Shown piece after piece: positions 1 to 37,773 of a DNA stretch of 64,000 bases (the stretch's first letter is position 1; every line of letters begins with the position of its first letter). The notes under the pieces were generated by a model. That model ran no database searches, was not told the origin of the DNA, and saw only the letters and a list, made by a program, of their open reading frames with translations. The translations under genes and the position numbers were made by a program. The DNA is from Candidatus Aminicenantota bacterium. Its GTDB lineage: Bacteria > Acidobacteriota > Aminicenantia > Aminicenantales > Saccharicenantaceae. The stretch is taken from the NCBI GenBank assembly GCA_026393975.1, contig JAPKZD010000008.1, positions 1-64,000 on the forward strand. The letters are read 5' to 3'.

Positions 1-517
1 TGCCTCTCTAAGGGCAGAGGAATGGCCATACACCCAACAGGGAGGGCTGTTCAAATCGATTACAGCGAAAAGACGGTCTTATTATTATTTATTCAACGAC
101 TTAGAATCTGTTTTGAAAAAAACGTCCGGACAGGCCTGGGTTTGACCTGATTTTCGGATTGCATACGCACCGCTTTGATCCAAACATTTTACCTGGAAAA
201 ATGCCTCGGCACAAAGAGTCGGACCTCATCCCTGAAAAATGGTCCAGACATAATGTGAATTTTCTGGCAAAAAACTGCCCTTCCCAATGGACGAGGATAC
301 GGGCGGCAGGTCAATGAAGTGGACCTTCCGCCGCAGGGACTGGGCTATGCTATACTCCCGGCTGACGATTAATTTGGCGACCGTTTGGGTGAGCGAGCTT
401 GAATGCGGAGAAGCGGTTTACACAGGATATCTGAGACTCCCGAGCAACCTTTAATTGAACGAGATCGGCCAATCGGTTGAATGCCGTCGGCTTTGTCCGT
501 TGAAAGGTAGGCGCCCA
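1..517. other. Intergenic region with repeat copy and possible promoter
   Basis: I see no convincing gene here. The stretch is more AT-rich than its surroundings. It contains a 48-bp repeat copy at 221-268 that recurs at 11609-11656, and a short motif ending in GCAGGTCAATGAAG near 305-318 that also occurs near 22311-22328. TATACT at 351-356 could be a -10 box for the M28 peptidase gene, but the upstream TTCCGC is 19 bp away, so the promoter call is weak. Open frames on the minus strand here lack any recognisable protein character. Confidence 0.5.
221..268 (+). repeat. 48-bp dispersed repeat, copy 1
   Basis: The copy begins GGACCTCATCCCTG and matches 11609-11656 with about four mismatches over its length. 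Its first 25 bases start with GGACC and end with GGTCC, so they can form a short 5-bp stem. The second copy abuts a tRNA 3' fragment. The two copies are direct repeats about 11.4 kb apart and bracket the region that includes the IS3 remnant and the radical SAM gene. Confidence 0.75.
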
Positions 518-2758
518 ATGAAGAATCTTGCAAGATGGATTTGGGTGATGGCCCTTGTCCCCTGGTTTCTTTCGAGCACATCGCAGGCTCAAAATGCCCC
601 GATGGGCCGGTCCCTAGAAAAGCAGTTCGATTCCTATCTCTCTCCGGCTGATCTTAGGGCCAGATTGAAGCGGCTCAGCGCGCATCCTCACCATGTCGGT
701 TCCCCTTATGATAAGGAAAACGCCGAGTTCATTCTTTCCCAGTACAAAACGTGGGGATTCGATGCCCGCATCGAAGAGTTCAGCGCCTTGTTTCCAACTC
801 CCAAGACGCGCCTGCTGGAGATGACCGCCCCCGTCAAGTACACGGCGGTCCTGAAAGAGCCGCCCCTGAAGGAAGATAGCACCTCGAACAAGGTTGTCGA
901 ACAGCTGGCGACCTATAACGCCTACTCGATTGACGGTGATGTGACCGGTGACCTCATCTACGTGAATTACGGAATTCCATCCGACTACGATGAGCTAGAG
1001 AGGATGGGGATCGATGTCCAGGGCAAAATCGTTATCACCCGTTACGGAGGATCCTGGAGGGGGATTAAGCCGAAGGTGGCCGCAGAGCACGGGGCGATCG
1101 GCTGTCTGATCTATTCCGATCCGAAAGACGACGGTTTCTACGTCGGCGATGTCTATCCCAAAGGCGCCTGGAGGAACGAATTCGGCGTCCAGCGAGGGTC
1201 GGTCGCAGAAATGCCTGTCTACCCCGGCGATCCGTCGACGCCTTTCATTGGGGCGACACCGGGAGTGAAGCGCCTCCCCCTCAACGAGATCAAGGTCCTG
1301 ACGAAAATACCGGTTCTTCCGATTTCCTATCATGACGCTCTTCCCCTGCTCCAATCCTTGACCGGGCCGGTTGCGCCGGACCATTGGAAAGGGGCTCTGC
1401 CCGTGACCTATCATGTCGGGCCGGGGCCGGCCAAGGTCCATTTGAAACTGGCGTTCAGCTGGGACATCAAGCCCATCTATGATGTCATCGCCATGATCCA
1501 GGGGAGCACCTACCCGGATCAATGGATCATCCGGGGAAATCATCATGACGCGTGGGTGAACGGAGCGGAAGATCCTCTCAGCGGGCAGGTGGCGACGATG
1601 GAGGAGGGCAAGGCCTTGGGCGAACTGGTCAAGAGCGGCTGGAAGCCGAAACGGACCATCGTCTACTGCGCCTGGGATGGAGAAGAGCCGGGATTGATCG
1701 GCTCCACGGAATGGGTGGAAACTCACGCCGACGAATTGCGGCAAAAGGCGGTCGCCTATATCAATTCCGATTCGAACGAGCGAGGGTTTGTCTATATGGA
1801 CGGATCGCAGACGCTCCAGCATTTCATCAACGACGTTGCCCGGGACGTCCTCGACCCCGAAAAAAATATCAGCGTCTGGGAGAGGGCGAGGGCCGTCCGG
1901 CTTCTGGAAAGCTCTCCCGGGGAGAAAAAAGATATCCGGTCCGCGACAGACCTGAAGATCGGCGCCCTGGGATCCGGTTCCGATTTCACCCCTTTTCTCC
2001 AGCACATCGGCATTGCCTCCCTGAACATCGGCTATGGCGGTGAAAGCGAAGGTGGCGGCTACCATTCGATCTACGATTCGTTCGACCATTTCATGCGCTT
2101 CGGCGATCCCACGTTCGCCTACGGGGTGGCTCTGGCCCAGACCGGCGGACACGCCGTCCTGCGGCTGGCGGATGCCGATATCCTTCCCTTCGACTTTTCG
2201 GATTTTGCCGCGGTCGTGGCCGGGTATCTGGGCGAGATCAAGGACCTGACTCAGAACATGAGGGAAGAGACGCTCGAATTGAACCGGGAGCTCGAGGAGA
2301 ACGTGTTCACCGAGGTGGCCAATCCGGCCAAAACCTACCGGGCGCCCAAGGCCAAGGATCCGGTTCCGTACTTGAATTTCGCGCCGCTCGAGAATGCCGT
2401 CAGCACCCTCCGGAAGAGCGCAGAGGAATATCAGAACGCGAAGCGTGAGCTCGAGGAAAGCGGGAGGAAGCTGGCCGGCGACCGGCCGATGCGTCTGAAC
2501 GAGATCGTCTTCAGGACCGAGCGGGCGCTCACGAATCCCGAGGGATTGAAAGGACGTCCCTGGTTCATCCACGAGATCTACGCGCCGGGTTTCTACACGG
2601 GCTACAGCGTGAAGACGCTTCCGAGCGTCCGGGAAGCCATCGAACAAAGACAGTGGGAAGAAGCCGACCAGCAGGTCATCGTGGTTGCGGACACGCTGGA
2701 AGCCTATTCAGGGGAAATCCGCAAAGCAACGGCCATCCTCCGATCCGCGTCGAAATAG
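518..2758 (+). CDS. Exported M28 family metallopeptidase (glutamate carboxypeptidase II-like)
   Basis: This is a 746-residue zinc exopeptidase with a signal peptide (about residues 1-24, ending SQAQ), so it should act in the periplasm or outside the cell. A PA-type insert precedes the M28 catalytic domain, and a C-terminal helical region resembles the dimerisation domain of the PSMA/transferrin-receptor group. Visible M28 motifs are NHHDAW (from N341), the downstream DPLSG, WDGEEPG with the expected catalytic and zinc-binding glutamates E389/E390, NSDSN, and YHSIYDS with H516. Substrate is probably peptides with acidic or unspecified C-termini; this cannot be fixed from sequence. I chose the ATG at 518 because GAAAGGTAG precedes it and it starts directly with the signal peptide; an upstream in-frame ATG at 455 would add a non-hydrophobic leader. 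It converges on the damaged amidohydrolase gene 12 bp downstream. Confidence 0.93.
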   Translation: MKNLARWIWVMALVPWFLSSTSQAQNAPMGRSLEKQFDSYLSPADLRARLKRLSAHPHHVGSPYDKENAEFILSQYKTWGFDARIEEFSALFPTPKTRLLEMTAPVKYTAVLKEPPLKEDSTSNKVVEQLATYNAYSIDGDVTGDLIYVNYGIPSDYDELERMGIDVQGKIVITRYGGSWRGIKPKVAAEHGAIGCLIYSDPKDDGFYVGDVYPKGAWRNEFGVQRGSVAEMPVYPGDPSTPFIGATPGVKRLPLNEIKVLTKIPVLPISYHDALPLLQSLTGPVAPDHWKGALPVTYHVGPGPAKVHLKLAFSWDIKPIYDVIAMIQGSTYPDQWIIRGNHHDAWVNGAEDPLSGQVATMEEGKALGELVKSGWKPKRTIVYCAWDGEEPGLIGSTEWVETHADELRQKAVAYINSDSNERGFVYMDGSQTLQHFINDVARDVLDPEKNISVWERARAVRLLESSPGEKKDIRSATDLKIGALGSGSDFTPFLQHIGIASLNIGYGGESEGGGYHSIYDSFDHFMRFGDPTFAYGVALAQTGGHAVLRLADADILPFDFSDFAAVVAGYLGEIKDLTQNMREETLELNRELEENVFTEVANPAKTYRAPKAKDPVPYLNFAPLENAVSTLRKSAEEYQNAKRELEESGRKLAGDRPMRLNEIVFRTERALTNPEGLKGRPWFIHEIYAPGFYTGYSVKTLPSVREAIEQRQWEEADQQVIVVADTLEAYSGEIRKATAILRSASK

Positions 2759-2769
2759 GGGAGGTTCGT

Positions 2770-4119
2770 CTAGGGCCTCTTATAGATCACGCCGCCTTTC
2801 ATGACGAAGCACACATCGCGGACGGCCTCGATGTTCTGAGTGGGGTCGCCTGTCACGGCCACCAGGTCTGCCAGGAAATTGGCCCGTATCCGGCCGAGTT
2901 GATCCTGCATGCGGATGATCTGGGCGTTGACCGCGGTGGCCGCCAGAAGGGCCTGCGTCGGAGTCATGCCCCCGCGCACCATCCACTCGATCTCGCGGTA
3001 GTTGGTACCGTGAGCGAAAACGCCGACGTCGCTGCCCAGCCCGATCGTGACACCGGCCGCGAGGGCCGTCTTGAAGGCCCTCAACGCTTGCTGCATTCCC
3101 GTCGTCAGGGCTTGCCCCTGTTTGTACCCCTCGAAGTACTCCCCATAGGCTTCCTCGGCTGCCAGCGTCGGCAGATAGGCCACACCGTGCTGGGCCATCA
3201 GGCGGAAGACCTCCTCGGTGCCGCCTTAGCCGTGTTCGATCGTGTCCACTCCGGCCATGGTCGCTCGGCGCATCCCCTCCGCGGTCGTGGCGTGGGCCGA
3301 CACCGGACGGCCGGCGGACTTGGCTTCCGCGACTAGCGTCCTCAACTCATCCTCGCTGAAGGTGGGAACCGTCCCGCTCACCCCGTGCCGGTAGTCCGCG
3401 TATACCTTGACCCAATCGGCGCCGTGCCCGACCTGCTCCCGGACCGCCTTGATGATCTCGGCCTGTCCGCTCGCTTCCTGGCCGCCTTTCGGAAGGACCA
3501 GGTCAGGGGCAAAGCCGGCCGGCCCGGGCCCATAGCTCGCAGTGGCGACGATCGCTAATGTCGCCACGAGCAGGCGCGGCCCCGGGATGAGGCCCTCACG
3601 GATGGCCCGCTGGACGGAGACGTCCGCGTAGCCTGCGCCTTCGGTGCCGAGGTCCCGAAGGAGGGTGAACCCGGCCATCAGCGTGCGCTCGCAGTGGATC
3701 ACCGCCTCGATCGTCCGATAGGCGAGCGGCTCTTTCAAAACCTGGTCGTTCCAGAGCGTCTCGTTATAGGGGTGAAGGAAGATGTGCGAATGAATGTCCA
3801 TGAGGCCCGGCAGCAGGGTCTTTCCGGGCAGCTCGATCGTCTTTGTGCCTGCCGGGACGGCGATCTGCGCCTTCGGCCCGACGGCGGCGATCCTATCTCC
3901 CTTCACAAGGACGACCCAACCCTCGTGCGTCTTGCCGTCCTCCGCATCGAACACCCGCGCCGGCACGATGAGGGTGGCGGCCGGAGCTTGGCCTTCGGCA
4001 GGGGAATGGCCGGTGACGCTTCTTTGGGTGGCCGCTGAAACCAACGAAAGGGCCAGGCCCGTGTCGATGAGAACGAGGAACACCGTTGTCGCGATCCGCC
4101 CGATGGCGGCGTGTTTCAT
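2770..4119 (-). pseudogene. Amidohydrolase (imidazolonepropionase-like) interrupted by an in-frame stop
   Basis: The reading frame encodes an exported metal-dependent amidohydrolase of about 449 codons. It has an N-terminal hydrophobic signal, DIHSH (metal-binding HxH), DWVKVYADY (the lysine position), SAHA, IEHG and GLGSDVG (late aspartate). The frame is complete and collinear except for one TAA at 3226-3228, directly after IEHG. The sequence resumes in the same frame with [14 protein letters not shown], so this is a point nonsense change, not a frameshift. The second half could restart at the ATG at 3198 but would lack four metal ligands, so it is unlikely to be active alone. A sequencing or assembly error, or readthrough, are alternatives. 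The start at 4119 has GGAGTAATCCC upstream and lies 15 bp after the C45-type gene, suggesting one transcript. Confidence 0.85.
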
Positions 4120-4134
4120 GGGATTACTCCGTTC

Positions 4135-5547
4135 CTATTTCGAGCCCGATTTAAAGACCGTCCACGGCTGGGTAGGACGGCTCTTCAAGTAGCCATTGAG
4201 ATAGTCGTATTGCCGGTGTTCCTGAAGGAATTTCGGGGCGTCAAAAGGGATATCGCAAGAGCTGCCCCATTTGGCCCAGAAGGTCATCTGCTCGGCCATC
4301 CGGGCGTCCACGACCTTGCCGTCCAGGGCCCCGGCCGGGTAAAAAGGCTTGGCCCAGGTGTCACTGGAGTTGCCGGCGGGGTCCGGAGCGAGCTCCCAGT
4401 GTCCGCAGATCGTGCGGTCGCCCGGGTTTTCTCTGCCGGCATAGACGTCATAGTGATCGCCCAACATGAGCTTGCCCCGTTCGACGTCGATTTTCCCCAT
4501 CCATTTGTCAAAAAGGTCGAGCCATCGCACCCGCCTGGCGATGTCGCTGTGCTTGATGTTGTCGAAGTCCGAGTCGGTCTCCTGGCGCATCAGAGGGACG
4601 TTCTCCGTGATGTTCGAACCGGAATAAAAGCCGTCCCGGGTCCGTTCGATGGAATGAACCTTGAGACCGAGCTCGAGCCGGGCGATCTCGTTGCTGTGCA
4701 CGTCGCCGAAGAGCCAGGTGTTGGCGTAACCCCCGTTGTTCCCGTCGATCATGATCTTGAGGGCTTCGTCCAGGTCATGAGCGTACTGCATGGCCTTCCG
4801 GATGCGGACGAACTCGGGGATCCCGGCCGGATCGAATCCCTTGAAATAGTCGATCGTCGTTTCGGTTCCCACGAGTCCCGACGAGCAGATGAAGAAATCC
4901 GTGCCGCTGTGGATGGCGGCCGGGAATCCCTGCATCAGGATCCGGGCCCCCTTTTCAGGCAGCAGATCGATGACCACGTTCGTGTCGGCCGGCACGAAGA
5001 AGGACCAGGTGTTGTGGGCCATGACGATGCGGCCGTCGGAAGTGGCTTTCCCGGTGGCGATGAAGGCGCTGCAGCCGCCGGTCTTCTGCTGTGGAGTGTC
5101 GTCCTGGAGCGAGGGGTACCAGTAACCCATGATCTCAGCCGAGGCGTTGAGGAGAAGGATGTCCCCGTAGCTGACGTCGACTCCGGCCTTGCGCGCGCCG
5201 GCGGTGATCCCCTCCATTTCCTCCCGATATTCGGCATCGATCTTCGGGGTGAACATTTTGAGGGTCTGTTCGACGAAATAGGGCCACTCCTTGCCCGTGT
5301 TCCACCAGGTCATGTGCTTTTCGACGCGGAGGCTCTCCGCGATCTCTTTGGCCAGGAGGTAGCCGTGCTGGAAGCCGCGGGCCAAGGGCTTCCCCTCGAT
5401 GTGCAGGTAGACCCAGCCGTTCTTCTCTGCCCGGGAGGCCTTGGCCACCCAGGACTGTTCTTCCTTGGTCAAGTCGGCGGCGAGCAGGACGCCCGCGCTG
5501 ACCATCCCGATGAGCAAAAGGGAAACGATCTTCTTGTTGAAATGCAT
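4135..5547 (-). CDS. Exported C45-type (acyltransferase/phospholipase B-like) Ntn hydrolase
   Basis: The 470-residue protein starts with a signal peptide (about residues 1-23). It has the hallmark GGCSAF segment of C45/phospholipase-B-like Ntn hydrolases, in which the chain is cleaved before the cysteine (here Cys159) to expose the N-terminal nucleophile. The following segment (SDGRIVMAHNTW) and the NGGYANTW region are typical conserved parts of the fold. These enzymes hydrolyse or transfer acyl groups from amides or lipids; the substrate here is unknown. The start at 5547 has GGGAGGCACTC just upstream. It is the first gene of a probable two-gene leftward unit with the interrupted amidohydrolase. 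Confidence 0.85.
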   Translation of the reverse strand: MHFNKKIVSLLLIGMVSAGVLLAADLTKEEQSWVAKASRAEKNGWVYLHIEGKPLARGFQHGYLLAKEIAESLRVEKHMTWWNTGKEWPYFVEQTLKMFTPKIDAEYREEMEGITAGARKAGVDVSYGDILLLNASAEIMGYWYPSLQDDTPQQKTGGCSAFIATGKATSDGRIVMAHNTWSFFVPADTNVVIDLLPEKGARILMQGFPAAIHSGTDFFICSSGLVGTETTIDYFKGFDPAGIPEFVRIRKAMQYAHDLDEALKIMIDGNNGGYANTWLFGDVHSNEIARLELGLKVHSIERTRDGFYSGSNITENVPLMRQETDSDFDNIKHSDIARRVRWLDLFDKWMGKIDVERGKLMLGDHYDVYAGRENPGDRTICGHWELAPDPAGNSSDTWAKPFYPAGALDGKVVDARMAEQMTFWAKWGSSCDIPFDAPKFLQEHRQYDYLNGYLKSRPTQPWTVFKSGSK

Positions 5548-5584
5548 GAGTGCCTCCCGTCGCGAGACGATAATATGCTTTGCC

Positions 5585-6130
5585 TGGAATTGCTGTCAAG
5601 AAAAGCGCCGTCTGGCCGCTTATGAGCTCAACAAATATCTCGATCTCGGCTTCGTCCCTCCGGTCGTGGAGCGGACCATCAATAACTACCCGGGATCCCT
5701 TCAGATCTTCGTCGAAGACGCCTTTCCGGAGACAGCCAGGAAAACCCAGAGCATCAAGCTCAGTGACCCGAAAGCCTTCGACCAGGCCATGGCCGACCTG
5801 AGGGTCTTCATCAACCTCTTCTCCGACTCCTGCGGGGACGAGCGGGACCGCGACATCCTGATCCAGAGGTGGACCGAGAAGATCTCTGCCGTCGGCTTTT
5901 CCCGGGCCTTCGCTCCGAATAACGAAACCATTCCGGGGTGCGAGATCTTGAGGTGTTCCCGGAGCTTCTACGGGAAACTCCTCAACTGGGATCAGGCCAA
6001 GGTCAAAACCCTCCTCGATCCATATCTGAACGCGGAGGAGATGCGGGCCCTCCATGCCCGCGTGGGCTCCATCCTCTGGATGATCAAAAAGCAGATCGAA
6101 ATGCGGGGCGAAAGCGCCGTCCTGATCTGA
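5585..6130 (+). pseudogene. 5'-truncated fragment of a conserved kinase-like protein
   Basis: From about RLAAYELNKYLDLG at 5609 to the stop at 6128-6130 the frame looks like real protein. It contains VPPVVERT, LRVFINLFSD, GDERDRDILIQ, a C-SRSFY region and a GSILWMIKKQIE tail. This pattern resembles the C-terminal half of HipA/FAM20-like or PI kinase-like proteins, where an N-D-R motif supports nucleotide binding. No start codon with a ribosome binding site precedes it, and the upstream in-frame codons read antisense into the C45-type gene, so the N-terminal half with the ATP-binding loop is missing. I read it as a decayed 3' remnant. The family assignment is tentative. Confidence 0.5.
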
Positions 6131-6155
6131 ACGTTCTGTCCGAAGGAGGGGGGAG

Positions 6156-6366
6156 ATGGCCGGCCAGAACATCGACACAAGGACCGACGTTTACGCGTCG
6201 GGTTGACCACCACCCTGGCGATTCTCTTGGTCGCTTTCTCCGTGACGACGGCCATCCAGTTTCGCTGCCTACGCCCGCGCGCGGGACAGGGCGAATCAGG
6301 AAAAGCGGCGGCTCCGCGATCTACGTCCGGCTGAGGGAAAGCCGCGACGAGCTCGAGCGGGGCTAA
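6156..6366 (+). pseudogene. Multiply frameshifted remnant of a membrane signalling protein
   Basis: A good ribosome binding site (AAGGAGGGGGGAG) precedes ATG at 6156, but the frame stops after 16 codons. The three forward frames in succession give a transmembrane segment (LTTTLAILLVAFSVTTAIQF), then an Ala/Arg-rich charged stretch (AAYARARDRANQEKRR), then RLRESRDELERG before the stop. Together they look like the membrane anchor and start of a coiled coil of a sensor kinase or cyclase. At least two frameshifts separate the pieces and nothing follows. It lies directly downstream of the kinase-like fragment. Confidence 0.4.
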
Positions 6367-8438
6367 AGCCTGAACCTGTAACCGGCGTAAAGAGCGAGTC
6401 TCGTCCGGCGTCCGAAATCCTGGTTCGCGTCCGCGGCCGCCTGGAAGGGGAAATAGACCTCGACCCCGACGTTGAGCCTCTCGAGGCGTCCGAACAGGTC
6501 GTAGAAAAGCGGCATCTCCACTCCCGTCGTCAGGAAGGCGCGGCGGAGGTTCGCCCGGCCGTCCCAGAGCTTGAAGCCCAGAAGCTTCAGGCTGGCAAGG
6601 TTGGCTTTGGGAAGATGAAATTCCAGGGTGAACGGGGAGACTTCCAAAGTGCCGGCGTAGGCCTGGGCGTCCGGGCTTATTCCCCGGATGTTGTAGTCGA
6701 TGACTCCGAGACTTAAGGAGGGCCGCCAGTTGACGAACGCCAAGTATCCGTTGCCCTTTTCCCTGCCCCATACGCCCGGGCAGAACTCGAGGGATGCACC
6801 TGTGCTAGACGGGTGCGAGAGATAGGAAGCCGACAGGGTCACTTGAGGCTTGACCTTTGGCTGGCGGAAGTCCTCCGGGTTCACGAAGTGCGGAGAGGCG
6901 TCGACGACCCGGCCGCCGACGACATGGACGAGCAGATAATGATGGCCGACGCCGGTGACGTCGTCCCTGATTTCGACGGATCTTCCGCTCCTGGGGCCGC
7001 CGAGATCCTGGAGTTTCTGATTATAGGCGTTGACCCAGGGTTTGGTCTTTTGGGCCATGAAAACTGTCCTCAGCGGTCCGCCCCCGCCCCCGGAGATGTA
7101 ACATTGAACGGTGTGATCGGCCGACCCCGGCGCCCTCGCGATGAGAGTGAAATGCTCATAGGCATGGACGCACGAACTGAAGACGTCGGAGGCGTCGGAA
7201 AAGAGGATGTCGTCGAAGAAGCTTGGAGCGCCCTTCTCCTGGCCGGGCTGGGGAAGTCCCAGGGCCAGCCAACTGTTGTAGCCGACACCCGGATTGGTGA
7301 CATGCCGGGAGCTATTGAAGATCGGGCTATGCATTGACACGACGAGGGTCAGGCCGCGTTCCCGGGCGTATGCGGCGACCGCCTGGTAAAAATCGGATTG
7401 GCCGTTGAAGGGGCTGACCGTGAAGAGGTTCAGCCGGTGTTGCTCCTTCTTGTCGGGGTAGAGGGCCTGTTTCAGCCGGGCGAAGTCCGGATAATGCCAG
7501 CCCCGGGCCATGGAATCCAGGAGCAGGTAGACCACGTTTCTGGCTTCGAACGCGTAGTGAACCATGTTGTCGGAATTCAGGACTGGGAGTGTGCCGTAGC
7601 CGGCCTTTCGGAAAATCGCCGCGAGCCCGGCGGCCAGGCGCTCCTTGCCGGCCCGATATTCATCTTCCTGAAGGGGCGGATTCTCGTTGAATTTCAGGTG
7701 AAAACGGCCGTCTTTCTTGAGGACGTATTGCTCGGCCAGGTATCGAACGTCGGCAGGATCCCCGAGCTTCGCGGAGAGCTCGCGGAACGTTTTTCCCGGG
7801 AGGTCGGCCGGTACGGGGTAGAGGATATGCGGGTTGTGAATCCAACGGTCCCAGTCGAAGAACGATTTGAGATAGACGGGCCCTTTGGTGGAGTCCATAA
7901 GATCCGTGTAGTGGGTCGGGGCATGAGGTCGGAAGCTCAAGAGCTCATGGTTTCCGGTGACAGGAAAGATCGGCTTCTCCCGGGTGAGGATTTGGAGATA
8001 AGGATAGGAGATCCCGTCGGGTCCCTTTCCGTCGAAGGCTTTCTCCAGCGCGTCCCATTGCCTGGGGCTCGAGCCCTCATAGACGAGGTCGCCGTTAAGG
8101 ATGACGAAGCGGATCCGGTCGTATAGACGCTCGCCGGTCTTCTCGTCAACAACTTGTAGCATGTCCTTGGCGATGGCGTTGAAGACGGCGTGTCCGAAAT
8201 CCTTGGGACTGTTCTGGATATCGCCGATAAGCACGAAATAGTAATCGTCAAGCCTGTTGCCGGAACTCGAGGCTTCCGTTAGGAACCTCCCGACGAGGTC
8301 GATGTTTCGGTCTTTGAACTTCGGGCTTTCGCCCGAAAACGCGACGGGCCGAGGTTCGGTCCCGACGGCCCGACCGGTCATGGATAGGGCCAGGAGCAAC
8401 AACAGGCTGGCCAGGACCGATCTGACCTTGATCTTCAT
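6363..8438 (-). CDS. Exported calcineurin-like phosphoesterase with C-terminal beta-barrel-like domain
   Basis: The 691-residue protein has a signal peptide (about 1-26). Its N-terminal calcineurin-type metallophosphoesterase domain shows successive metal motifs: LIGDIQ, LNGDLVYEG, VTGNHE, then VVSMHSP and a late histidine-rich region CVHAYEH. The last 190 residues or so are different: alternating hydrophobic/polar strands separated by turns (for example LALYAGYRFRL at the very end), as in outer-membrane beta barrels or autotransporter-like porins. The likely picture is an outer-membrane-anchored phosphoesterase with a periplasmic or surface catalytic domain; the substrate is unknown. The start at 8438 has AGGAGAATGAATTT upstream. 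Its last codon overlaps the remnant on the opposite strand. Confidence 0.85.
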   Translation of the reverse strand: MKIKVRSVLASLLLLLALSMTGRAVGTEPRPVAFSGESPKFKDRNIDLVGRFLTEASSSGNRLDDYYFVLIGDIQNSPKDFGHAVFNAIAKDMLQVVDEKTGERLYDRIRFVILNGDLVYEGSSPRQWDALEKAFDGKGPDGISYPYLQILTREKPIFPVTGNHELLSFRPHAPTHYTDLMDSTKGPVYLKSFFDWDRWIHNPHILYPVPADLPGKTFRELSAKLGDPADVRYLAEQYVLKKDGRFHLKFNENPPLQEDEYRAGKERLAAGLAAIFRKAGYGTLPVLNSDNMVHYAFEARNVVYLLLDSMARGWHYPDFARLKQALYPDKKEQHRLNLFTVSPFNGQSDFYQAVAAYARERGLTLVVSMHSPIFNSSRHVTNPGVGYNSWLALGLPQPGQEKGAPSFFDDILFSDASDVFSSCVHAYEHFTLIARAPGSADHTVQCYISGGGGGPLRTVFMAQKTKPWVNAYNQKLQDLGGPRSGRSVEIRDDVTGVGHHYLLVHVVGGRVVDASPHFVNPEDFRQPKVKPQVTLSASYLSHPSSTGASLEFCPGVWGREKGNGYLAFVNWRPSLSLGVIDYNIRGISPDAQAYAGTLEVSPFTLEFHLPKANLASLKLLGFKLWDGRANLRRAFLTTGVEMPLFYDLFGRLERLNVGVEVYFPFQAAADANQDFGRRTRLALYAGYRFRL

Positions 8439-8526
8439 AAATTCATTCTCCTCTGAAATAGAGACATGAATAATTATTATACTCCTCGGTTTTGAAATCC
8501 ATGAGCGCCCTGGTTCGTTTCAAAGC

Positions 8527-8784
8527 TTGATGAATGATAGCCTTCCCCCTTATAATTCAATTCCCGTGATCTTTTTGGACAGTCCGATAATCCGGCTATT
8601 CTCCATTCTGTTTGTTCCGCTGGCGTTTGCTCAACTCCCGCCTCAAAAGGCTCTTCCGAAAATTATCAAGCTTGATTCCCAGGGACAGAATTATCTCCGT
8701 GTTCTTGGAGGTCCCCCGGAAACGTCGACGATGCGGTCTGGCCTTGTGACCCTCGCGCCCGGAAATTCAGTGGGAAAGCACTGA
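8527..8784 (+). pseudogene. 5' fragment of a cupin gene truncated by an insertion sequence
   Basis: The frame reads a hydrophobic exported N-terminus followed by LPKIIKLDSQGQNYLRVLGG and SGLVTLAPGNSVGKH. The latter matches the first half of a cupin motif (glycine turn, then the first histidine). The frame ends exactly where the IS3-type element starts: the TGA stop at 8782-8784 is the first three bases of the insertion sequence. The rest of the cupin is not found beyond the right end of the element, so insertion was probably followed by deletion. The precise original start is uncertain. Confidence 0.6.
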
Positions 8785-9595
8785 GGTGCCCCCCGATGGT
8801 TGGACAGTTTAGTGGCTGGTTGAAGGTGCATAGCGGGCCCGCCGGCCTTGCCAGGACCGGGACTGGGAAGCCCGGCCCCGGCCGTCCATGCTGACCTTGA
8901 TGTCATGCTTTTCCAAAAGTCCCGTGAAGTCGGTGCTCGTAAATTGCGAGCTCTGGTCCGTGTTGAAAATCTTCGGCTTCGAGATTTGAAGCGCTTGCCG
9001 AACGGCGTCCAAACAGAAGCCCTTGTCCAGCGTCGTCGAAAGCTCCCACGACAACACGTACCGGCTGTTCCAATCCATGACGGCCACGAGATAAACGAAC
9101 CCAGGCGCCAGCCGGATACACGTGATATCCGTGCACCAGGCTTGATCTGGAGCGTTAATCGTAAGTCCATTCAACAGATAAGGATAAACCTTGTGATCCG
9201 AACCGTTCCACGACAGCCCCGGCTCCGGATAGATGGCCGCGAGGCCCATCAGCCTCATCAGCCGGCTGACTCGCTTGCGGTTGACCTCGTAACCCTGCGT
9301 CCGCAACCAGCTCATCCTGAGATTTCTCATTCTGAGACTTCTGCTGGGAGAACATTTCCGGAAGCCGTTCCAGAAGCCGGGCTCGCCATTGGCGGATCTG
9401 ATTGGGATGGACGCTATACCCCGAAGCGATCTCGGTGATCGTTTTTTCTCCCTTGACCGCCTCCAGAGCGACCTTGGCCTTGAAAGCCGCATCATGAGTT
9501 TTTCGCATCGTAACCATCTTATGCCATACCTCCTTTGAAGATATGGCGGGTCTTGATGCACCTTAACCCCCTGTCCAGTTTTTTGGGGATCCCCA
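8782..9595 (-). mobile_element. Internally deleted IS3-family insertion sequence (about 814 bp)
   Basis: The ends are imperfect inverted repeats. The right end, read inward, is TGGGGATCCCC followed by CTGGACAG. The left end, read inward, is TGAGGTGCCCCCC followed by TTGGACAG. The element carries orfA and orfB pieces on the minus strand but lacks the middle of the transposase and the final catalytic glutamate region, so it cannot move by itself. A full IS3-family element would be about 1.2-1.5 kb. It interrupts the cupin gene on its left. I did not find a clear target-site duplication, consistent with a rearranged right flank. Confidence 0.8.
8809..9517 (-). pseudogene. IS3-family transposase remnant (orfA and orfB pieces)
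   Basis: The first part, from the start at 9517 to about 9325, is an OrfA helix-turn-helix (RKTHDAAFKAKVALEAVKGE, then IRQWRARLLE). The sequence then jumps in another frame into OrfB at RTQGYEVNRKRVSRLMRLMG, skipping the end of OrfA and the start of OrfB. OrfB continues through the integrase core with the first aspartate in WCTDIT and the second in FNTDQSSQFTS. After KVSMDGRGR it becomes unrelated, so the third acidic residue (E of the DDE triad) is absent. Confidence 0.8.
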
Positions 9596-9903
9596 CAGTT
9601 TGGTCACAATTTGGTCACAAATCCCTAGTTAGCTTCATTAAAAACTAACCTGTGAATATCAGGTTGAACCAGCACTCTGATTTGGACCAAAATCCGGGGA
9701 GCCGATCACCACGACCAGTCACCTTTTCCTGATCACTGCCGCTACTCACAGCCTCGCCACGTGAAGGGGTCAGAAGCTTGGGGTCTCTTCCTCGACGACT
9801 TGGCAGCCATCGAGATCAGTGATTTGACATTCCTACCTTGGCATTCTATTAATAGGTCAATTGCTATTTCGAAGTGATCCGTCGATAAAGAGGATTAATT
9901 CAT
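9596..9903. other. Intergenic region upstream of the radical SAM gene
   Basis: No gene is visible. Immediately after the insertion sequence there are two tandem copies of TTTGGTCACAA (about 9598-9620). A 6-bp hairpin with arms AACCTG and CAGGTT lies at 9647-9665. The composition is lower in GC than the flanking chromosome. A Shine-Dalgarno-like AAAGAGGATTAATTC precedes the radical SAM start. I see no convincing -35/-10 pair. Confidence 0.4.
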
Positions 9904-11598
9904 ATGAACTCGATAAAACTTCTTCTGGTTTCTGTCTTCGGGCCCTTCGGGGTGAGGGACGATTACGCCGAGGGAAATGGAATGCAGATGGAACTCTTAA
10001 ACAACCAGATCACGAGGCAGCAGGGAGTCCACTCGCCCCGGCAGTCCTACTGGAGCTTCCCGTTGTACCTGCTCGCGGAGAATGTCTCGGTGCCTGCAAC
10101 TGTTCTCGATTTTCCCACCTGGGAAGAATTCACGAGGGAACTGGAAAAGGGTTACACTCACGTGGGCATCACCTTCATCGTCCCCAACGTCCTGAAGGCT
10201 CGAAGGATGGCCGAGCACATCAGATCGAAACACCCTGAGATAAAGATAATACTGGGCGGCTTTGGCACCATGGTCCCTGCCCTGGAGACCGTCGTTCCCC
10301 ACGACGGTGTATGCGACGGCGAGGGTGTGGAGTGGCTGAGGCGGTACTTCGGGGAAGACCCATCGGCACCTATCGTACATCCTGCCATCATCGGCCCAGC
10401 CTACGAGTACATCTATGGGGCAAAAACTCCCACGAAGGGGTCGATCCTGCTCACCGGGGTGGGGTGCAACAACGCCTGTGAGTTCTGCGCCACCTCCTTC
10501 AAGTTCGGCAAGGAGTATGTGCCCTTTATGTCGACCGGGGCCCAGGTGTTCGATGCCTGTCTGAAGTCTGAAAAGGAACTGGGTTCAAGGGGATTTACCA
10601 TTATCGATGAGAATTTTCTCAAGAAGCCCCAACGGGCCAGGGAACTTCTGACCCAGTTGGAGGCACAGGAGAAGGCCTACGTCTTCGACATATTCTCCTC
10701 CGCCGAGGTGATCACCGATGTGGGCATCGATTTCCTCGTGCGACTGGGCATACACATGATCTGGATCGGTGTCGAGTCAAGGGCCAACACCCATGCGAAG
10801 CTTAGGGACATAGACATCGGCAAACTGATAGCTCAGCTCCAGGAAAATGGCATCTCGGTGATAACGTCTGGCATCCTTTTCCTTGACCACCACGACCAAG
10901 CGACCATCAGAGAAGACATCGAGTGGATCATCGGCCTCGGTTCCGACATGACCCAGTTCATGAACTACACACCCTTCCCATGTACCGCTTTGTATGCAAG
11001 GCTTGCCGGGGAGGGAAGGCTCAAGGATATCCACTATCGCTTCCACCACGGGGCGGGAGAACTGAACTGGAACCACCCGTACATCGTTGATCCAAAGGAA
11101 CAGGCCAACCTGCTGAAAGAAGCATTCAGGAGGAAGTACGAGGTCAGCGGTCCTGGTATCCTCAATATGGCAATCACCGCCATCCGGGGCTATGCGAAGG
11201 CCGAGGCCAATAGAACACGGAGGGAGGCGGAATCGCTTGTCTGGAACCCCGAGAGTCTGCGATACGAGAAGAGCGACCATGCTGCTGACGACGCGTTCAT
11301 GCGCCAGAGGATCAGACGTCTCCAGAAGATCGCCTTGAACTTGCGCCCCATCCTGCTTCCCGCCCTTTTGTTCGCACCCAACAAGGCTTCCAGGATGAAG
11401 GCCTGGAATGCGATGAGACTGTACGGAAAAGTCCTTGGCAGTGCCGGCCCGGGGGTGATCCTGAAGGGGCTCTTCCTGGTATTCACGGGTTTCATGGAGC
11501 AAGTCAAGCTGTGGTTCAGGAGAGCGAGTGGGTACGAGGATATCGTTCTCCAGCCTCCCAGTCGAAGGGTGGAGTATAGGATTCCTCGGTTGGGATGA
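9904..11598 (+). CDS. B12-binding domain radical SAM protein
   Basis: The 564-residue protein combines an N-terminal cobalamin-binding-like domain (IILGGFGTMVP near residue 115) with a radical SAM core that has the [4Fe-4S] motif CNNACEFC. The conserved GVES-like segment (IWIGVESR) follows. The C-terminal third contains hydrophobic helices and may associate with the membrane. Class-B-type radical SAM enzymes methylate or rearrange unactivated carbons in lipids or natural products; the product here cannot be named. It stands alone, between an insertion sequence and a tRNA fragment, with somewhat lower GC than its neighbours. This context suggests lateral acquisition. Confidence 0.88.
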   Translation: MNSIKLLLVSVFGPFGVRDDYAEGNGMQMELLNNQITRQQGVHSPRQSYWSFPLYLLAENVSVPATVLDFPTWEEFTRELEKGYTHVGITFIVPNVLKARRMAEHIRSKHPEIKIILGGFGTMVPALETVVPHDGVCDGEGVEWLRRYFGEDPSAPIVHPAIIGPAYEYIYGAKTPTKGSILLTGVGCNNACEFCATSFKFGKEYVPFMSTGAQVFDACLKSEKELGSRGFTIIDENFLKKPQRARELLTQLEAQEKAYVFDIFSSAEVITDVGIDFLVRLGIHMIWIGVESRANTHAKLRDIDIGKLIAQLQENGISVITSGILFLDHHDQATIREDIEWIIGLGSDMTQFMNYTPFPCTALYARLAGEGRLKDIHYRFHHGAGELNWNHPYIVDPKEQANLLKEAFRRKYEVSGPGILNMAITAIRGYAKAEANRTRREAESLVWNPESLRYEKSDHAADDAFMRQRIRRLQKIALNLRPILLPALLFAPNKASRMKAWNAMRLYGKVLGSAGPGVILKGLFLVFTGFMEQVKLWFRRASGYEDIVLQPPSRRVEYRIPRLG

Positions 11599-11608
11599 AT
11601 TGCTGGGG

Positions 11609-11656
11609 GGACCTCATCCCTGAAAAATGGTCCAAACACAATGTGAGTTTTATGGT
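11609..11656 (+). repeat. 48-bp dispersed repeat, copy 2
   Basis: This is the partner of the copy at 221-268, with about four mismatches, in the same orientation. It runs directly into the tRNA 3' fragment, so the fragment and repeat may mark one recombination junction. Confidence 0.75.
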
Positions 11657-11660
11657 AATC

Positions 11661-11701
11661 GGATCCAAAGGTCGGAGGTTCGAATCCTCTCAGGCACGCC
11701 A
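11661..11701 (+). pseudogene. 3' half of a tRNA gene (T-arm, acceptor strand, CCA)
   Basis: The segment contains a proper T-arm (GGAGG, TTCGAAT, CCTCT), followed by the acceptor 3' strand CAGGCAC, discriminator G and encoded CCA. The matching 5' acceptor strand (GTGCCTG) and D-arm are absent upstream, where the 48-bp repeat begins instead, so this is only a 3' half. Such fragments are typical footprints of integrases that recombine at tRNA 3' ends. The original amino acid specificity cannot be read because the anticodon loop is not preserved. Confidence 0.75.
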
Positions 11702-12240
11702 TTTATTATCAACAGGTTAAGCCCGCCCATGTCTTCGAGCAGGTCGCCTTGATGGCGGCCGAGGAGAGCGGGGATTATGAATAGCGGGGGATTGAGAGAG
11801 GAGAGGGGTCTGGCCTTGTTTGGGCGTATTCTCCGCCCCCCGGCCCGACCGTCCGCCTGCAGGAGTCCCCGGCCTGGCGAATCTTGAGTTCTTGACTCTT
11901 GCCCGGGGCTGGGATATCCTTGTTTCGTGATGGGGAGGGTAGGTTTCGAGCCTGAGGCCGGCGCTTTCATGCCGCGCGAAAAAAGGAATTTCCTATCAAT
12001 TGCGAAGCCAACTCCGCTGGTACATTCCTTTCTACAACCAGAGGCGAATCCATTCATCGATCGGCTACCGATCGCCTGTCGACTACGAACGTCGTGCGTC
12101 CTAAACTTAGGTGTCTACAAAACCGAGGGAAGATCCCGAAGCCTGGTGAACTTCGGAGCTTATCCCCAGTGTTGGGCAGACGTTAGGAGTGCCGGGTGGG
12201 CGAGTCGAAGACAGAGTCGTGGCGACACGGTAGGTCGGCG

Positions 12241-13038: not shown

Positions 13039-13245
13039 GGTTCTATGCGGATCTGATCGACATTAGTCGTCGAGGAAACGCCGGGATACTCACTGCTTGA
13101 CGTCAGCGAAATTCGGACAGGGAAACAGCGAAGCTCATCGGAATCGATTGTCCGGGAGATCAAGCGTCAAACCTGCCGGAAGTCTGCGCAAACCTCTGTT
13201 TTGGGGGAGCAAAGAAAAACCGCTTGTTCATTAACGGGGAGGGGG

Positions 13246-14034
13246 CTAGTTCAGGTAGGCTCTGGCTCCGGAGAAACGCTCCTTGAAATAAAGGCCGTCG
13301 AGAGATTCCTCGCGGACCTTTTTGCCTTTCCCCGGGGCATGAATAAAGACGTTCTCTCCGACGTAGATCCCCACATGGGATGTCGGCCGTCCCGGAGAGC
13401 CAGAGAAGAAGACGAGGTCGCCCTTTTGCAGCCGGTCCCGGGCGACCGTCGTTCCCGCTTGGTATTGATCCGTCATCGACCGAGGCAGGCTGAGGCCGTT
13501 CAGCTGATAGACCGCCCTGACTAGTCCGCTGCAATCGACGCCTTCGGGCCTCGATGTTCCGCCCCACGTGTACTCCACACCGATGAAACTCTCCGCCGTG
13601 GCCACCAGCTTTTCCCGGAGGTCCTCTCCCGACAAGCTCCGCCTATATACGGGCTGATCCTCGGGGCCGACGATGAAGTAGTCCTCGACGAGCACTAGCT
13701 CGAGAAGTCGCTTGGCCTCACGGACGGCGGCGTCCCTGGAAGGGAAGTCCCCGAAACGAACTCTAAAGAGCCCTGACCCCTGTGAAAAATAATAAGCATC
13801 CAGGCCGATGTCGTTCAGGGCCTGGGCCAGCCGTCGAGCATTGTCCAGGATGGAGAAGGCGCCAACCTGCACGGTGTAGCCCGTCCGCGCCACGGCGGCG
13901 CTTGGCGCGGCGGGAGCGGGGATTGTGGGAGGAGCGGAGGGAGGAATGACTCGGACGCCCGCTTGACATCCGGAGAACCAGGCAACAGCGACTCCGAAGA
14001 GGACAAGGCTGGTTCTCGTCAAACACATCTTCAT
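13246..14034 (-). CDS. Lipoprotein with SPOR and NlpC/P60 domains (peptidoglycan endopeptidase)
   Basis: The 262-residue protein has a lipobox ending FSGC (Cys23), a Pro/Ala linker, and a SPOR domain (about 52-125, starting YTVQVGAF) that binds denuded septal glycan. The C-terminal NlpC/P60 cysteine peptidase has the cysteine in VDCSGL, the histidine in TSHVGIY and a further polar residue in FIHAPG. It should cleave peptidoglycan stem peptides at the division site or cell wall while anchored to a membrane. The start has GAGGAAG upstream. The length and domain order are normal for SPOR-NlpC lipoproteins. Immediately upstream lies a tRNA fragment. Confidence 0.9.
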   Translation of the reverse strand: MKMCLTRTSLVLFGVAVAWFSGCQAGVRVIPPSAPPTIPAPAAPSAAVARTGYTVQVGAFSILDNARRLAQALNDIGLDAYYFSQGSGLFRVRFGDFPSRDAAVREAKRLLELVLVEDYFIVGPEDQPVYRRSLSGEDLREKLVATAESFIGVEYTWGGTSRPEGVDCSGLVRAVYQLNGLSLPRSMTDQYQAGTTVARDRLQKGDLVFFSGSPGRPTSHVGIYVGENVFIHAPGKGKKVREESLDGLYFKERFSGARAYLN

Positions 14035-14436
14035 TTTATTCTTCCTCCATTCAATTTTGTCGAACAGAGGATTGGAAGATGGAATTTTTATGGGGTCGCC
14101 CTTCTAGCGCAGTTCGTTCGTAATCAGCAGGTCGGAGGTTCGATCCCTCTCGCTGGCTCCATCCCATATCCCTCGAGAAAATAGGTCGTTTATGCCTCAT
14201 TTCTGTACCGTTTAATCGTCCGTCAGAGTCCCCCGGAATTATGCAGATTTCAATCTTCCAGTGGATATTTTGTGGACACTTAGATTTCATAGTTGACAGC
14301 TAAGGGTCCGACGTATTAAGTAAAGAATAGCTGCAGATAGAAGCGCCAGACGAAGAGAATATGCCCGGACATGGGGAAATCAGAAAAAACTGCTGATAGT
14401 TATGCAGAACCGAGGCTTTCCCGCTCCGTCGGCTAG
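14035..14436. other. Intergenic region with tRNA-Thr fragment
   Basis: The stretch contains a tRNA 3' half (14117-14161) and otherwise no gene. TTGACA at 14293-14298 could be a -35 element for the HEAT-repeat gene, but the -10 (TTAAGT at 14316-14321) is poor. The region is AT-richer than average. Confidence 0.4.
14117..14161 (+). pseudogene. 3' half of tRNA-Thr(CGT), probable attachment-site remnant
   Basis: Reading from the anticodon loop TTCGTAA (anticodon CGT), the segment gives the anticodon-stem 3' strand TCAGC, variable loop AGGTC, T-arm, acceptor strand CGCTGGC, discriminator T and CCA. The 5' strand that should pair with TCAGC is missing; upstream there is only a possible D-arm crumb (TAGCGCAGTT). 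The first 32 bases (14117-14148) recur exactly at 21333-21364. The anticodon loop to T-loop is the usual core used by tyrosine recombinases that integrate in tRNA genes. Confidence 0.75.
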
Positions 14437-20083: not shown

Positions 20084-20131
20084 CTTGAAAATCTCACTTC
20101 AGAGGTAGTACATTGAATAAGGGCAGGTCAT
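20084..20131 (+). repeat. 57-bp dispersed repeat family, partial copy R1
   Basis: The copy runs from CTTGAAAATCTCACTTCAGA to the GGGCAGGTCAT end and matches R3 (24091-24147) in the same orientation with a few mismatches. It lacks the first GGTCAAATG part. The core can fold into a short stem with arms ACCTC and GAGGT in the better-preserved copies. Confidence 0.75.
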
Positions 20132-20178
20132 CAGCTTGCCATCACTTCCGTTGGCACCGATGAAACGAGGTCCTTACG

Positions 20179-21306: not shown

Positions 21307-21332
21307 GTGTAGCGAAACGCTAGGTCAGTCCC

Positions 21333-21364
21333 TTCGTAATCAGCAGGTCGGAGGTTCGATCCCT
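21333..21364 (+). repeat. tRNA-Thr(CGT) core direct repeat, second copy
   Basis: These 32 bases are identical to 14117-14148 (anticodon loop through T-loop of a tRNA-Thr). The sequence then diverges into GCAGACGG instead of the tRNA acceptor strand. The copies are direct repeats 7.2 kb apart and enclose the HEAT, lipoprotein, ankyrin, RDD and zinc-ribbon genes. Confidence 0.8.
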
Positions 21365-24147: not shown

Positions 24148-24157
24148 AAGAGGGGAC

Positions 24158-29805: not shown

Positions 29806-31161
29806 ATGAAATCGGCCTGGAAGTTTTTCGGTTCGGTCAAACTGGCCATCGTCCTGTTCATCCTGATAACCCTCGCCTCGATCCTGGGGACGCTCATCCC
29901 CCAGGGCCGGAGCGCCGCCGAATACGCGGCGCGCTACGGCGGCTCGTCCGGGCTCTTCGTTTCGCTCCAGCTGACGCGCCTGTACCAGTCCTTCTGGTAC
30001 CTGGCCCTTCTCCTTCTCTTCGCCCTGAACACGGTCGTCTGCACGGTCTCCCGATTCGGACCGAAGTGGCGAAGGGCGTTCGGGCCTTCCGTCGAGGCGA
30101 ACTCCCAGACCCTCATGACCATGAAGGTCAAGAACCGGTTCCGCCTCGCGCTTCCGATCGCCGCGGCCAAGGACAGGATCGCCGGACTCCTGCGCTCCCG
30201 TCATTACCGCCTGACGGAATCCGCGGCGGCGAACGGCGTCGTCCTTTTGGCGAGAAAGCGGCGCCTGGGCCGGTTCGGGTCCGACGTCGTCCACCTCGGT
30301 CTTCTGGTCATCCTGATCGGCGGTTTCACCAGCGGCCTTGGGGGACACCGGGCGGACGTCCCCCTCCTCGAAGGCCAGACGGCGGATATCCCCCACGCGG
30401 CCTTCCAGGTCCGCCTGGACAAGTTCGAGACGGAATACTATCCCCGGGGCGAGGTCAAGGACTGGAAGAGCACGGTCACCGTCCTCGAGAACGGCACGCC
30501 GGTCCTGACCCAGGTCGTCATGGTCAACCATCCGCTGACCTACCGCGGTTTCTCTTTCTTCCAGACGAGCTACGGCTGGGATTGGGACAACCCGCGGCTC
30601 GAGCTGGAGGTCAGGAAACGTGCCGACGCCGCTTTCTCCAAGACCGTCGCCTTGAAGGTCGGCGAACGGGCCCCGGTCGATGACGCGGACGTCAGCCATG
30701 TCGTCGTCAGGCAGTTCGTCCCCGATTTCGTCATGGGCGAGGGGAACAAGGTCCAGAGCCGTTCCCAGGAGCCCAACAACCCCGCGGCGATGGTCGAAGC
30801 GTGGAAAGGGGAGGAGCGCGTTTTTTCCGGGTGGATCTTCGCCAAGTACCCGGATTTCGGCCAGGGGCATACGGCCGGTCAGTCCGCCCTCGCTTTCGTG
30901 CTGAAAAACTACTCGGCGGCTCAGTACTCCGTCCTCGAAGCGGCCAAGGACCCGGGCGTGAACTTCATCTGGCTCGGCTGTGTCCTCGTCACGGCGGGGT
31001 TCTTTCTGGCTTTCTACTGGCCGCCCCGGGAGATCCGGGTCGTCCTCGAAGAGGTCCAGGGCAAGATCGAAGTGACCGCCGGCGGTCAGGCCGCGAAAAG
31101 CCGGGAGACGTTCCAATCCGAATTCGACCAGATCTTCGATTCAGCCAGGAGGCCGGCATGA
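29806..31161 (+). CDS. resB: ResB-like cytochrome c biogenesis protein
   Basis: The 451-residue protein has the ResB/Ccs1 layout: N-terminal membrane helices starting FFGSVKLAIVLFILITLASI with the SLGTLIPQ-like segment (ILGTLIPQG), a third helix, a large periplasmic domain (about 175-400), and a last helix near 405-425. With CcsA it delivers and ligates heme to apocytochromes c in System II maturation. ATG 29806 follows GTGGAGAGCGT. The stop overlaps the ccsA start (ATGA), implying translational coupling. It opens the cytochrome operon. Confidence 0.92.
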   Translation: MKSAWKFFGSVKLAIVLFILITLASILGTLIPQGRSAAEYAARYGGSSGLFVSLQLTRLYQSFWYLALLLLFALNTVVCTVSRFGPKWRRAFGPSVEANSQTLMTMKVKNRFRLALPIAAAKDRIAGLLRSRHYRLTESAAANGVVLLARKRRLGRFGSDVVHLGLLVILIGGFTSGLGGHRADVPLLEGQTADIPHAAFQVRLDKFETEYYPRGEVKDWKSTVTVLENGTPVLTQVVMVNHPLTYRGFSFFQTSYGWDWDNPRLELEVRKRADAAFSKTVALKVGERAPVDDADVSHVVVRQFVPDFVMGEGNKVQSRSQEPNNPAAMVEAWKGEERVFSGWIFAKYPDFGQGHTAGQSALAFVLKNYSAAQYSVLEAAKDPGVNFIWLGCVLVTAGFFLAFYWPPREIRVVLEEVQGKIEVTAGGQAAKSRETFQSEFDQIFDSARRPA

Positions 31162-31946
31162 CCGAGTCGACGCTTTTCACCATCGCCTTCATCTTTTATG
31201 TCGCGGCCCTGCTCGTCGACTTCGCCTCGCTCTTCGCCAGGAGGGAGAAGTGGGCCAGGACCGGACTCGCCTTGGCGGCGGCCGGACTCGTCTTCCATAC
31301 CGCGGCTCTCATCCTGAGGACCGTGGTCAGCCGTCACGCCCCGTTCACCAACATGTACGAATCCCTGTCCTTTCTCTCCTGGGCCGTCGTTGTCGCCCTG
31401 ATCGTTTTCGGCCGGAAAACGAAGGTCCCCAAACTCGGGCCCTACCTCATGCTGATCGTCGTCGGCCTCGTCGCGCTGGCCTCGTCCCCGCTCATGCCCA
31501 AGGGGGCGACGCCTCTCGTGCCGGCGCTCCAGAGCTACTGGCTCTGGCTCCATGTCTCGGTGACCCTCCTCGGCGAGGCTTTCTTCGCCGTCGCCTTCGT
31601 CTCCAGCCTCCTCTACCTTGCGGCCGACACGGAGGAAAAGAAGGAAAAGCTGGACTCCCTCAGCTACAGGGCCGTGGCCGTGGGCTTTCCCCTCTTCACC
31701 CTGGGAGGGCTCATTTTCGGCATGGTCTGGGCCTACCGGGCCTGGGGAAGCTATTGGACGTGGGATCCCAAGGAAGTCTGGAGCCTGATCACCTGGTTCG
31801 TCTTCGCCCTCTACCTCCACACCAGGGTCGTCATGGGTTGGAAGGGAAAACGCTCGGCGATCGTCGCCATCCTCGGCTTCCTGGCCGCCCTGTTCACCTA
31901 CTTCGGCGTCAATTATCTGCTCGCCGGACTCCACAGCTACGCTTGA
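31158..31946 (+). CDS. ccsA: CcsA/CcmF-type heme exporter/ligation protein
   Basis: The 262-residue protein has seven or eight membrane segments and the tryptophan-rich heme-handling WWD motif WGSYWTWDPKEVWSLITW. Histidines flank it (in SRHAPFTNMYES, WLHVSVTLLGE and LYLHTRV). It pairs with ResB in System II cytochrome c assembly. It overlaps resB by four bases and is followed 14 bp later by a multiheme cytochrome. Confidence 0.93.
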   Translation: MTESTLFTIAFIFYVAALLVDFASLFARREKWARTGLALAAAGLVFHTAALILRTVVSRHAPFTNMYESLSFLSWAVVVALIVFGRKTKVPKLGPYLMLIVVGLVALASSPLMPKGATPLVPALQSYWLWLHVSVTLLGEAFFAVAFVSSLLYLAADTEEKKEKLDSLSYRAVAVGFPLFTLGGLIFGMVWAYRAWGSYWTWDPKEVWSLITWFVFALYLHTRVVMGWKGKRSAIVAILGFLAALFTYFGVNYLLAGLHSYA

Positions 31947-37693: not shown

Positions 37694-37773
37694 AGTTTTT
37701 CCTTGTAAGCATTTTCCATTCTAAAGGCTCCCCGGGATTTGTCAATCGTTTTTTTAGCGTTCCGGCCGGTCAA

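Follow-up and report, generated by a model that had tools for sequence, protein, structure and literature searches.

A tRNA-Arg(CCG) 3' fragment in a tRNA-Thr island of a Candidatus Aminicenantota genome as a probable relic of tRNA-targeted integration

The stretch of DNA analyzed here, referred to as the window, comprises bases 1–64,000 of contig C21 (GenBank JAPKZD010000008.1) in an assembly from a Candidatus Aminicenantota bacterium (GCA_026393975.1; genome G000, 2.95 Mb in 25 contigs). Its left part carries cargo genes, transposase genes, dispersed repeats and three tRNA fragments, all on the plus strand, one derived from tRNA-Arg(CCG) and starting at position 11660 and two derived from tRNA-Thr(CGT) (Table 1). 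The Arg fragment lies between the end of a repeat of about 50 bp on its left and a second dispersed repeat and a transposase relic on its right. A reading made from the sequence alone had described it as the 3' half of a tRNA different from that behind the other two fragments, all three in one orientation, and had suggested serial integration from one direction. The parentage and the orientation hold, and the fragment is very probably the relic attachment-site (att) core of integrative elements that target tRNA-Arg(CCG) in Aminicenantes-type Acidobacteriota.

The fragment is identical at 42 of 42 nt to the corresponding part of an intact tRNA-Arg(CCG), which lies on the minus strand of a different contig and begins with GTGCCTG, the 5' acceptor strand predicted for the parental gene. 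The identity extends 2 bases beyond CCA, to position 11703 (44 nt, 100%, E = 1.5e-16). With up to 3 mismatches allowed, the pattern GGTCGGAGGTTCGAATCCTCTCAGGCAC matches once in the window and in none of 100 shuffles. A search for the tRNA 5' part, again allowing up to 3 mismatches, gave 0 matches in the window, and neither ARAGORN nor Rfam called a tRNA at the fragment, implying that the window does not hold it as part of an intron-split gene, the finding that was to have overturned the first reading. An intact 3' half reaching CCA would also be expected of a split or intron-bearing tRNA or of a gene for a functional tRNA-derived small RNA, an explanation that we regard as extremely unlikely given these negative results and the intact copy on C17. 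The exact tRNA end occurs in 14 stretches of named records, 13 of them (3 stretches belonging to one record) from Candidatus Aminicenantes or Acidobacteria/Acidobacteriota metagenome-assembled genomes and the remaining one from a record titled Thermoplasmatota archaeon.

The window fragment belongs to a family. The own genome contains seven tRNA-Arg(CCG) 3' fragments, two on C17, three on C1, one on C13 and the one in the window, and the matches listed for relatives add at least 23 more in 12 of 59 genomes, 21 of these 23 extending to tRNA position 75 or beyond. For 23 of the 29 fragments at fetched loci, the BLAST match begins at tRNA positions 28–36, that is, in the anticodon stem-loop, and the start of the window fragment at position 36 falls inside this range. 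Adjacent sites in the same orientation form 17 pairs on 9 contigs of 8 genomes, with a spacing of 551–18,323 bp (median 2,921), a count from which an opposite-orientation pair at G041:C192 and the 5' halves of tRNAs seen in G013 and G036 are excluded. Among the 17 units so bounded, only the first units of G009 and G003 have a match to PF00589 (Phage_integrase); 15 have none. In the own genome, the array at C17:1–8145 (L009) consists of tRNA-Arg(CCG), a unit with a MarR-HlyD-MFS-OEP efflux operon and a unit with two HEAT-repeat genes, each closed by a tRNA 3' fragment and without an integrase match. Several att ends in one orientation, with most units lacking an integrase match, are thus seen on C17, on C1 and in relatives, which is the arrangement of arrays of cis-mobilisable elements (CIMEs); the window copy stands outside this result. 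The part of the serial-integration proposal concerning att-type fragments was borne out insofar as, both in this genome and in relatives, intact tRNAs are followed by series of such fragments in one orientation. The arrays show how an uncultured lineage builds cargo islands at tRNA genes, with efflux and HEAT-repeat genes here and small single-gene units in relatives. Further arrays at tRNA-Ser, suspected from the 3' pattern, proved to be intact tRNA-Ser genes.

The att site itself is conserved. The left arm, core and right arm at C17:3003–3272 match sites on C1 of the own genome and in G002 and G041 at 84–93% identity over 184–270 bp, and an att match at E = 1e-18 or better is found in at least 9 of 142 genomes of the class, own included; the whole-genome searches score only part of the candidates (e.g. 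5–7 per genome), so that such counts are lower bounds. When the whole C17 array was compared with six loci sharing the att or the core (blastn, E ≤ 1e-5), the matches fell on att/tRNA sequence only, and none of those shown lay in cargo. The arms on C1 and in G002 form inverted repeats, 70 and 81 nt long and separated by 128 nt at either site. Both sites also have a 12-nt pair, CCGTGTCACAAA with a near-complement, at a distance of 233 nt; C17, the third site tested, has a 25-nt pair that overlaps the CCGTGTCACAAA motif and is likewise 233 nt apart. Arms are present at C17:3106, C1:50242 and G002 and partly in G041 and G007. A tRNA-Asp 3' fragment on C12 is followed by a sequence that aligns with the C1 right arm at a score of 75, against 37 for the highest of 300 shuffles, so that this arm accompanies two or more tRNA cores. 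A "pyrimidine right arm" pattern, devised after viewing the flanks and therefore descriptive only, is found at 16 of 29 fragments compared with 2.0% of random 20-mers; it is absent at the window fragment and present at 3 of 9 tRNAs that are intact or nearly so.

An integrase accompanies the att in one relative. In G009, a 476-amino acid open frame with HTH_17 and Phage_integrase domains (E = 1.9e-34) ends no more than 30 bp from an Arg core. The own genome has three PF00589 matches only, on C9, C14 and C13; the first two we take to be possibly chromosomal Xer, and the third, near an Arg site, is weak and partial (28.3 bits). The conserved att of about 270 bp could be used to find both the cassettes and the integrase that moves them.

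Two observations on C17 may be recorded here. At C17:128465–142698 (L170), tRNA-Arg(CCT) has a 29-nt 3' fragment about 14 kb downstream (90% identity, E = 1e-4), and a left arm of the tRNA-Arg(CCG) type lies between the two. C17:1–141 equals C5:1–141, so that exactly 141 terminal bases are common to both contigs. The C17 Arg fragment is cut at this junction, which probably holds an unassembled repeat, perhaps an insertion sequence (IS).

These features are consistent with a family of elements targeting tRNA-Arg(CCG), in which a tyrosine integrase would recombine the att of the element with the gene at the anticodon stem-loop. As the element would bring its own copy from the anticodon to CCA, each integration would restore an intact tRNA, and the 3' part it replaces would remain at the distal end of the insert. 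Successive rounds could then produce arrays in which 3' fragments of one orientation separate the cargo units. Most units, having no detectable tyrosine integrase, would need to be moved in trans.

In the window, the fragment is preceded by the repeat that the sequence-only reading had found shared with position 221 and placed directly before the fragment. The repeat exists and adjoins the fragment, with exactly one base (11659) in between. Its copies at 221–270 and 11609–11658 are 90% identical over 50 nt and have the same orientation, and their start-to-start distance of 11,388 bp had led to the proposal that they bracket an integrated unit of 11.4 kb. A model built from six copies (E ≤ 0.01) gave 5 matches in the own genome, one of them weak (E = 0.002), and 18 in G040; counting the own genome, 8 of 21 searched have one match or more. 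These are lower bounds, since only some candidates were scored. Most of the listed copies have no adjoining tRNA sequence; the repeat is not peculiar to tRNA fragments. The copies have a common sharp outer edge and some reach about 94 bp, and G040 contains two-ended elements of about 154, 92 and 125 bp with inverted terminal repeats at both ends. Because of the dispersed copies, the two-ended elements and the sharp edge, we read the repeat as the end of an IS or a miniature inverted-repeat transposable element (MITE), not as an element boundary. It delimits no 11.4-kb element; the bracket is accidental, and a role as att or as target duplication is ruled out. That repeat and fragment form the two ends of a single unit spanning 221–11701, as the matching orientation and the spacing of the copies might suggest, is very improbable in view of the dispersed and two-ended copies and of G004, where the radical SAM block stops 32 bp into the repeat and no tRNA fragment follows. 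Orphan cores thus carry a warning that a tRNA fragment beside a repeat does not delimit an element.

One related repeat end resembles the C-terminus of an IS3-type transposase by an rve_3 match that is weak, its 16.8 bits falling short of the cut-off of 26.5, and frame reading around the first eleven copies and two related ends, in the part listed, revealed no intact IS. The repeat lies near Arg sites at three loci that were picked for holding such a site and from which no rate is derivable: it is 1 bp from the site in the window, about 20 bp ahead of a fragment in G036, and 16 bp beyond the intact tRNA in G008. At G040:C5 (L160:1578–1705), a two-ended IS/MITE of about 92 bp abuts tRNA-Arg-like 3' sequence.

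The surroundings of the fragment point to a different tRNA. In all five relatives examined, tRNA-Thr(CGT) lies 1–22 kb upstream of the conserved flank that begins at about 29.8 kb in the window, in the same orientation, and the own copy, on C12, lies 3.6 kb from the contig end. The left ~29 kb of the window, with a GC content mostly below that of the sequence to the right and with both Thr fragments inside it, is on this synteny probably the far part of a tRNA-Thr(CGT) island. The Arg core is therefore out of place there and foreign to the island. The radical SAM block is 93.6% identical to G004, where it follows a tRNA-Thr fragment (the Radical_SAM score of the gene, 25.1 bits, is under the Pfam cut-off of 29.5), and the SPOR-NlpC/P60 block is 97.1% identical to its counterpart in G004. 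The order of the blocks differs between the two genomes: SPOR-NlpC/P60 and Thr fragment precede radical SAM in G004, whereas radical SAM comes first in the window. No transposase was recognized by eye beside the two G009 copies of the ~280-bp repeat that lies to the right of the fragment. The window copy would then be the debris of an Arg site within the island of another tRNA, Thr(CGT), trapped between the IS/MITE end on the left and the dispersed repeat and IS3 relic on the right; of the site, 42 bp have survived amid decayed transposons. As for serial integration, the left part of the window does resemble a repeatedly invaded island, but the order of events is unreadable from a copy that sits in a Thr island, lacks recognizable arms and is hemmed in by transposon remnants and a dispersed repeat.

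An Arg core in a Thr island could also result from an assembly chimera, with unrelated contigs joined at a short repeat. The assembly, in 25 contigs and probably from a metagenome, is fragmented, and a single base separates the junction from a repeat. However, G004 has the same sequence up to position 11640. The 141 terminal bases common to C17 and C5 moreover suggest, from the way such assemblers work, that k-mers overlapped by 141 bases, much more than the 50 bp of the repeat. We consider a chimera improbable to a high degree, if slightly less so than an 11.4-kb unit.

Several points weigh against reading the fragment as an att relic of a tRNA-Arg(CCG)-targeting family. Six of the 29 fragments begin outside tRNA positions 28–36, and several of the sites bounding the 17 units are partial (25–35 nt). 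The adjacent Arg pair at G041:C192 is in opposite orientation, as is a tRNA-Asp fragment in G039 relative to the neighboring Arg fragments. When the C1 right arm was tested at 13 sites, only two (C17:3106 and the C12 Asp fragment) beat every shuffle; it did not exceed shuffles at the window fragment, the Thr sites, C13, C1:32074, both tRNA-Arg(CCT) sites or the G039 Asp fragment. By the PF00589 profile there is no intact integrase beside the own Arg sites, and frame reading at C13 recovered none; the search covered PF00589 only, which serine recombinases and strongly decayed integrases could escape. At the window fragment itself, no arms are recognizable on either side, alignment scores lying within shuffles, and its contig has neither a partner fragment nor a PF00589 match, so that this copy could have been made by another route. 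The gap between C12 and C21 is unassembled, and the island is joined by synteny only. An arm-like sequence to the right of the window fragment was ruled out, its score being within shuffles. It is the missing arms that lead us to call the window copy a relic and not a working member.

The route of the Arg core into the Thr island may have been indirect: a composite block once located at tRNA-Arg could have been carried into it by an element specific for tRNA-Thr or through homologous recombination. This is a variant of the att reading, as the fragment would still be an att relic and only the route would differ. Mixed islands argue for it, both G036:C7, where an Arg 3' fragment has a tRNA-Thr-like gene (94.5% over 73 nt) on one side and a Thr fragment on the other, and C12 of the own genome, where the tRNA-Asp fragment closely follows tRNA-Thr, as does the loss of both arms at the window Arg core. 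Against it, the loci viewed include no Thr-type unit with an internal armed Arg core, although no dedicated search was made, and we give this passenger route somewhat less than an even chance.

The kind of system to which an att relic of this family would belong is already known, namely tandem islands at tRNA genes (tDNA) and cis-mobilisable elements, and with high probability the fragment is an orphan att core of such a tRNA-targeted mobile element. Pavlovic et al. reportedly described in 2004, as CIMEs and tandem accretion, att-ended units without integrase that are moved by a related integrase in trans; the units here are likewise att-ended and mostly without a PF00589 match, while for their mobility in trans we infer only that it would be required. 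In Dehalococcoides, ssrA islands follow one another in tandem behind a single RNA gene, with a direct repeat of the gene's 3' end bounding each, and 15 islands without an integration module are termed possible cis-mobilisable elements moved by accretion (PMC3146451). The arrays described here share the tandem units with repeated RNA-gene 3' ends, some without an integration module. They differ in target and enzyme, tRNAs and tyrosine integrases here compared with tmRNA and serine recombinases, as well as in the length of the repeat, a core of about 45–50 bp compared with 20 bp (PMC3146451). In the additive flexible genomic island fGI-2 of Methylophilaceae, recurring tRNA-Lys ends delimit insertions of 330 bp to 42 kb; the passages concerned name one tRNA and no arm architecture (PMC10872708), whereas cores of tRNA-Arg, tRNA-Thr and tRNA-Asp share islands here and inverted arms are present. 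Partial tRNA genes left by mobile-element integration (attR tRNA fragments) are expected to be pervasive (PMC9897764); compared with these, the window copy is orphaned in the island of another tRNA. Tycheposons are tRNA-bordered, cargo-carrying elements with a tyrosine recombinase (PMC10872708, PMC11389934). They also have a characteristic gene set. The arrays have the tRNA border in common with them, but their units are mostly small and without a detectable recombinase, 15 of 17 having no PF00589 match. A literature search with poor coverage of subscription papers brought up no title or abstract about such arrays in Aminicenantes. The fragment by itself is ordinary; the cassette arrays elsewhere in this genome and in relatives are the part worth following.

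Integron gene cassettes are short cargo units that share a common recombination site and mostly lack a recombinase of their own. A bolder and rather unlikely extension would be that Aminicenantes run an integron-like cassette system in which the tRNA 3' end is the recombination site, with an integrase acting in trans and arms on Arg and Asp cores. The conserved att would then be a tRNA core of about 48 bp between inverted arms of 70–81 nt, punctuating short and mostly integrase-less units, which we hold to be similarly doubtful. It is equally speculative that a trans-acting integrase might insert, excise and reorder units and that mixed islands at several tRNAs might exchange cassettes. The site here is a tRNA 3' end with inverted arms, in contrast to attC, and the likeness is one of resemblance only. 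If such a system did exist, the window fragment would be a fossil of cassette exchange between Arg and Thr islands.

Table 1. Features at and around the tRNA-Arg(CCG) fragment. Positions refer to the window unless a contig is named.
Feature	Position	Strand	Remarks
Second copy of the IS/MITE end	221..313	+	likeness to some G040 copies continues to about 313
IS3-type transposase (rve, HTH_21)	8812..9561	-	left of radical SAM block
Cargo block	9738..11640	+	radical SAM-like gene 9904-11598 and first 32 bp of IS/MITE end
IS/MITE terminal repeat, ~50 bp	11609..11658	+	outer end left; ends one base before tRNA fragment
tRNA-Arg(CCG) 3' fragment, probable relic att core	11660..11701	+	tRNA positions 36-77, anticodon to CCA; exact match to G000:C17:8069-8145(-)
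Dispersed repeat, ~280 bp	11721..12000	.	19 bp past tRNA fragment; matches in G004, G006, G009
IS3-type transposase relic, C-terminus	12000..12104	+	rve_2 E 9.6e-6, 26.1 bits, cut-off 22
Cargo block ending in tRNA-Thr(CGT) 3' fragment	13232..14163	+	SPOR-NlpC/P60 gene 13249-14034, minus strand
tRNA-Thr(CGT) 3' fragment	14105..14162	+	parent C12:3611-3684, minus strand
tRNA-Thr(CGT) fragment, cut in T-arm	21320..21364	+	
Start of conserved flank, probable right limit of island	29817..31600	.	31600 = query end; G004 homology starts 29659
tRNA-Asp 3' fragment with Arg-att right arm	G000:C12:3325-3374 (L106)		about 240 bp downstream of tRNA-Thr

Three further repeats were observed in the window. 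A repeat of about 60 bp, CTTGAAAATCTCACTTCAGAGGTGGTACATTGA, lies near the starts of several island genes, at 20084–20134, 22187–22219 (minus strand) and 24100–24150, and also at C1:49073–49126 and C12:1683–1737; judged by eye only, it is promoter- and operator-like. A 65-nt inverted repeat within the island (13119–13183 and 29568–29632) is 91% complementary over a distance of 16.4 kb. Finally, positions 54272–54567 contain two identical 78-bp tandem repeats and a third copy at 83%, with an inverted relative at 37769–37875.
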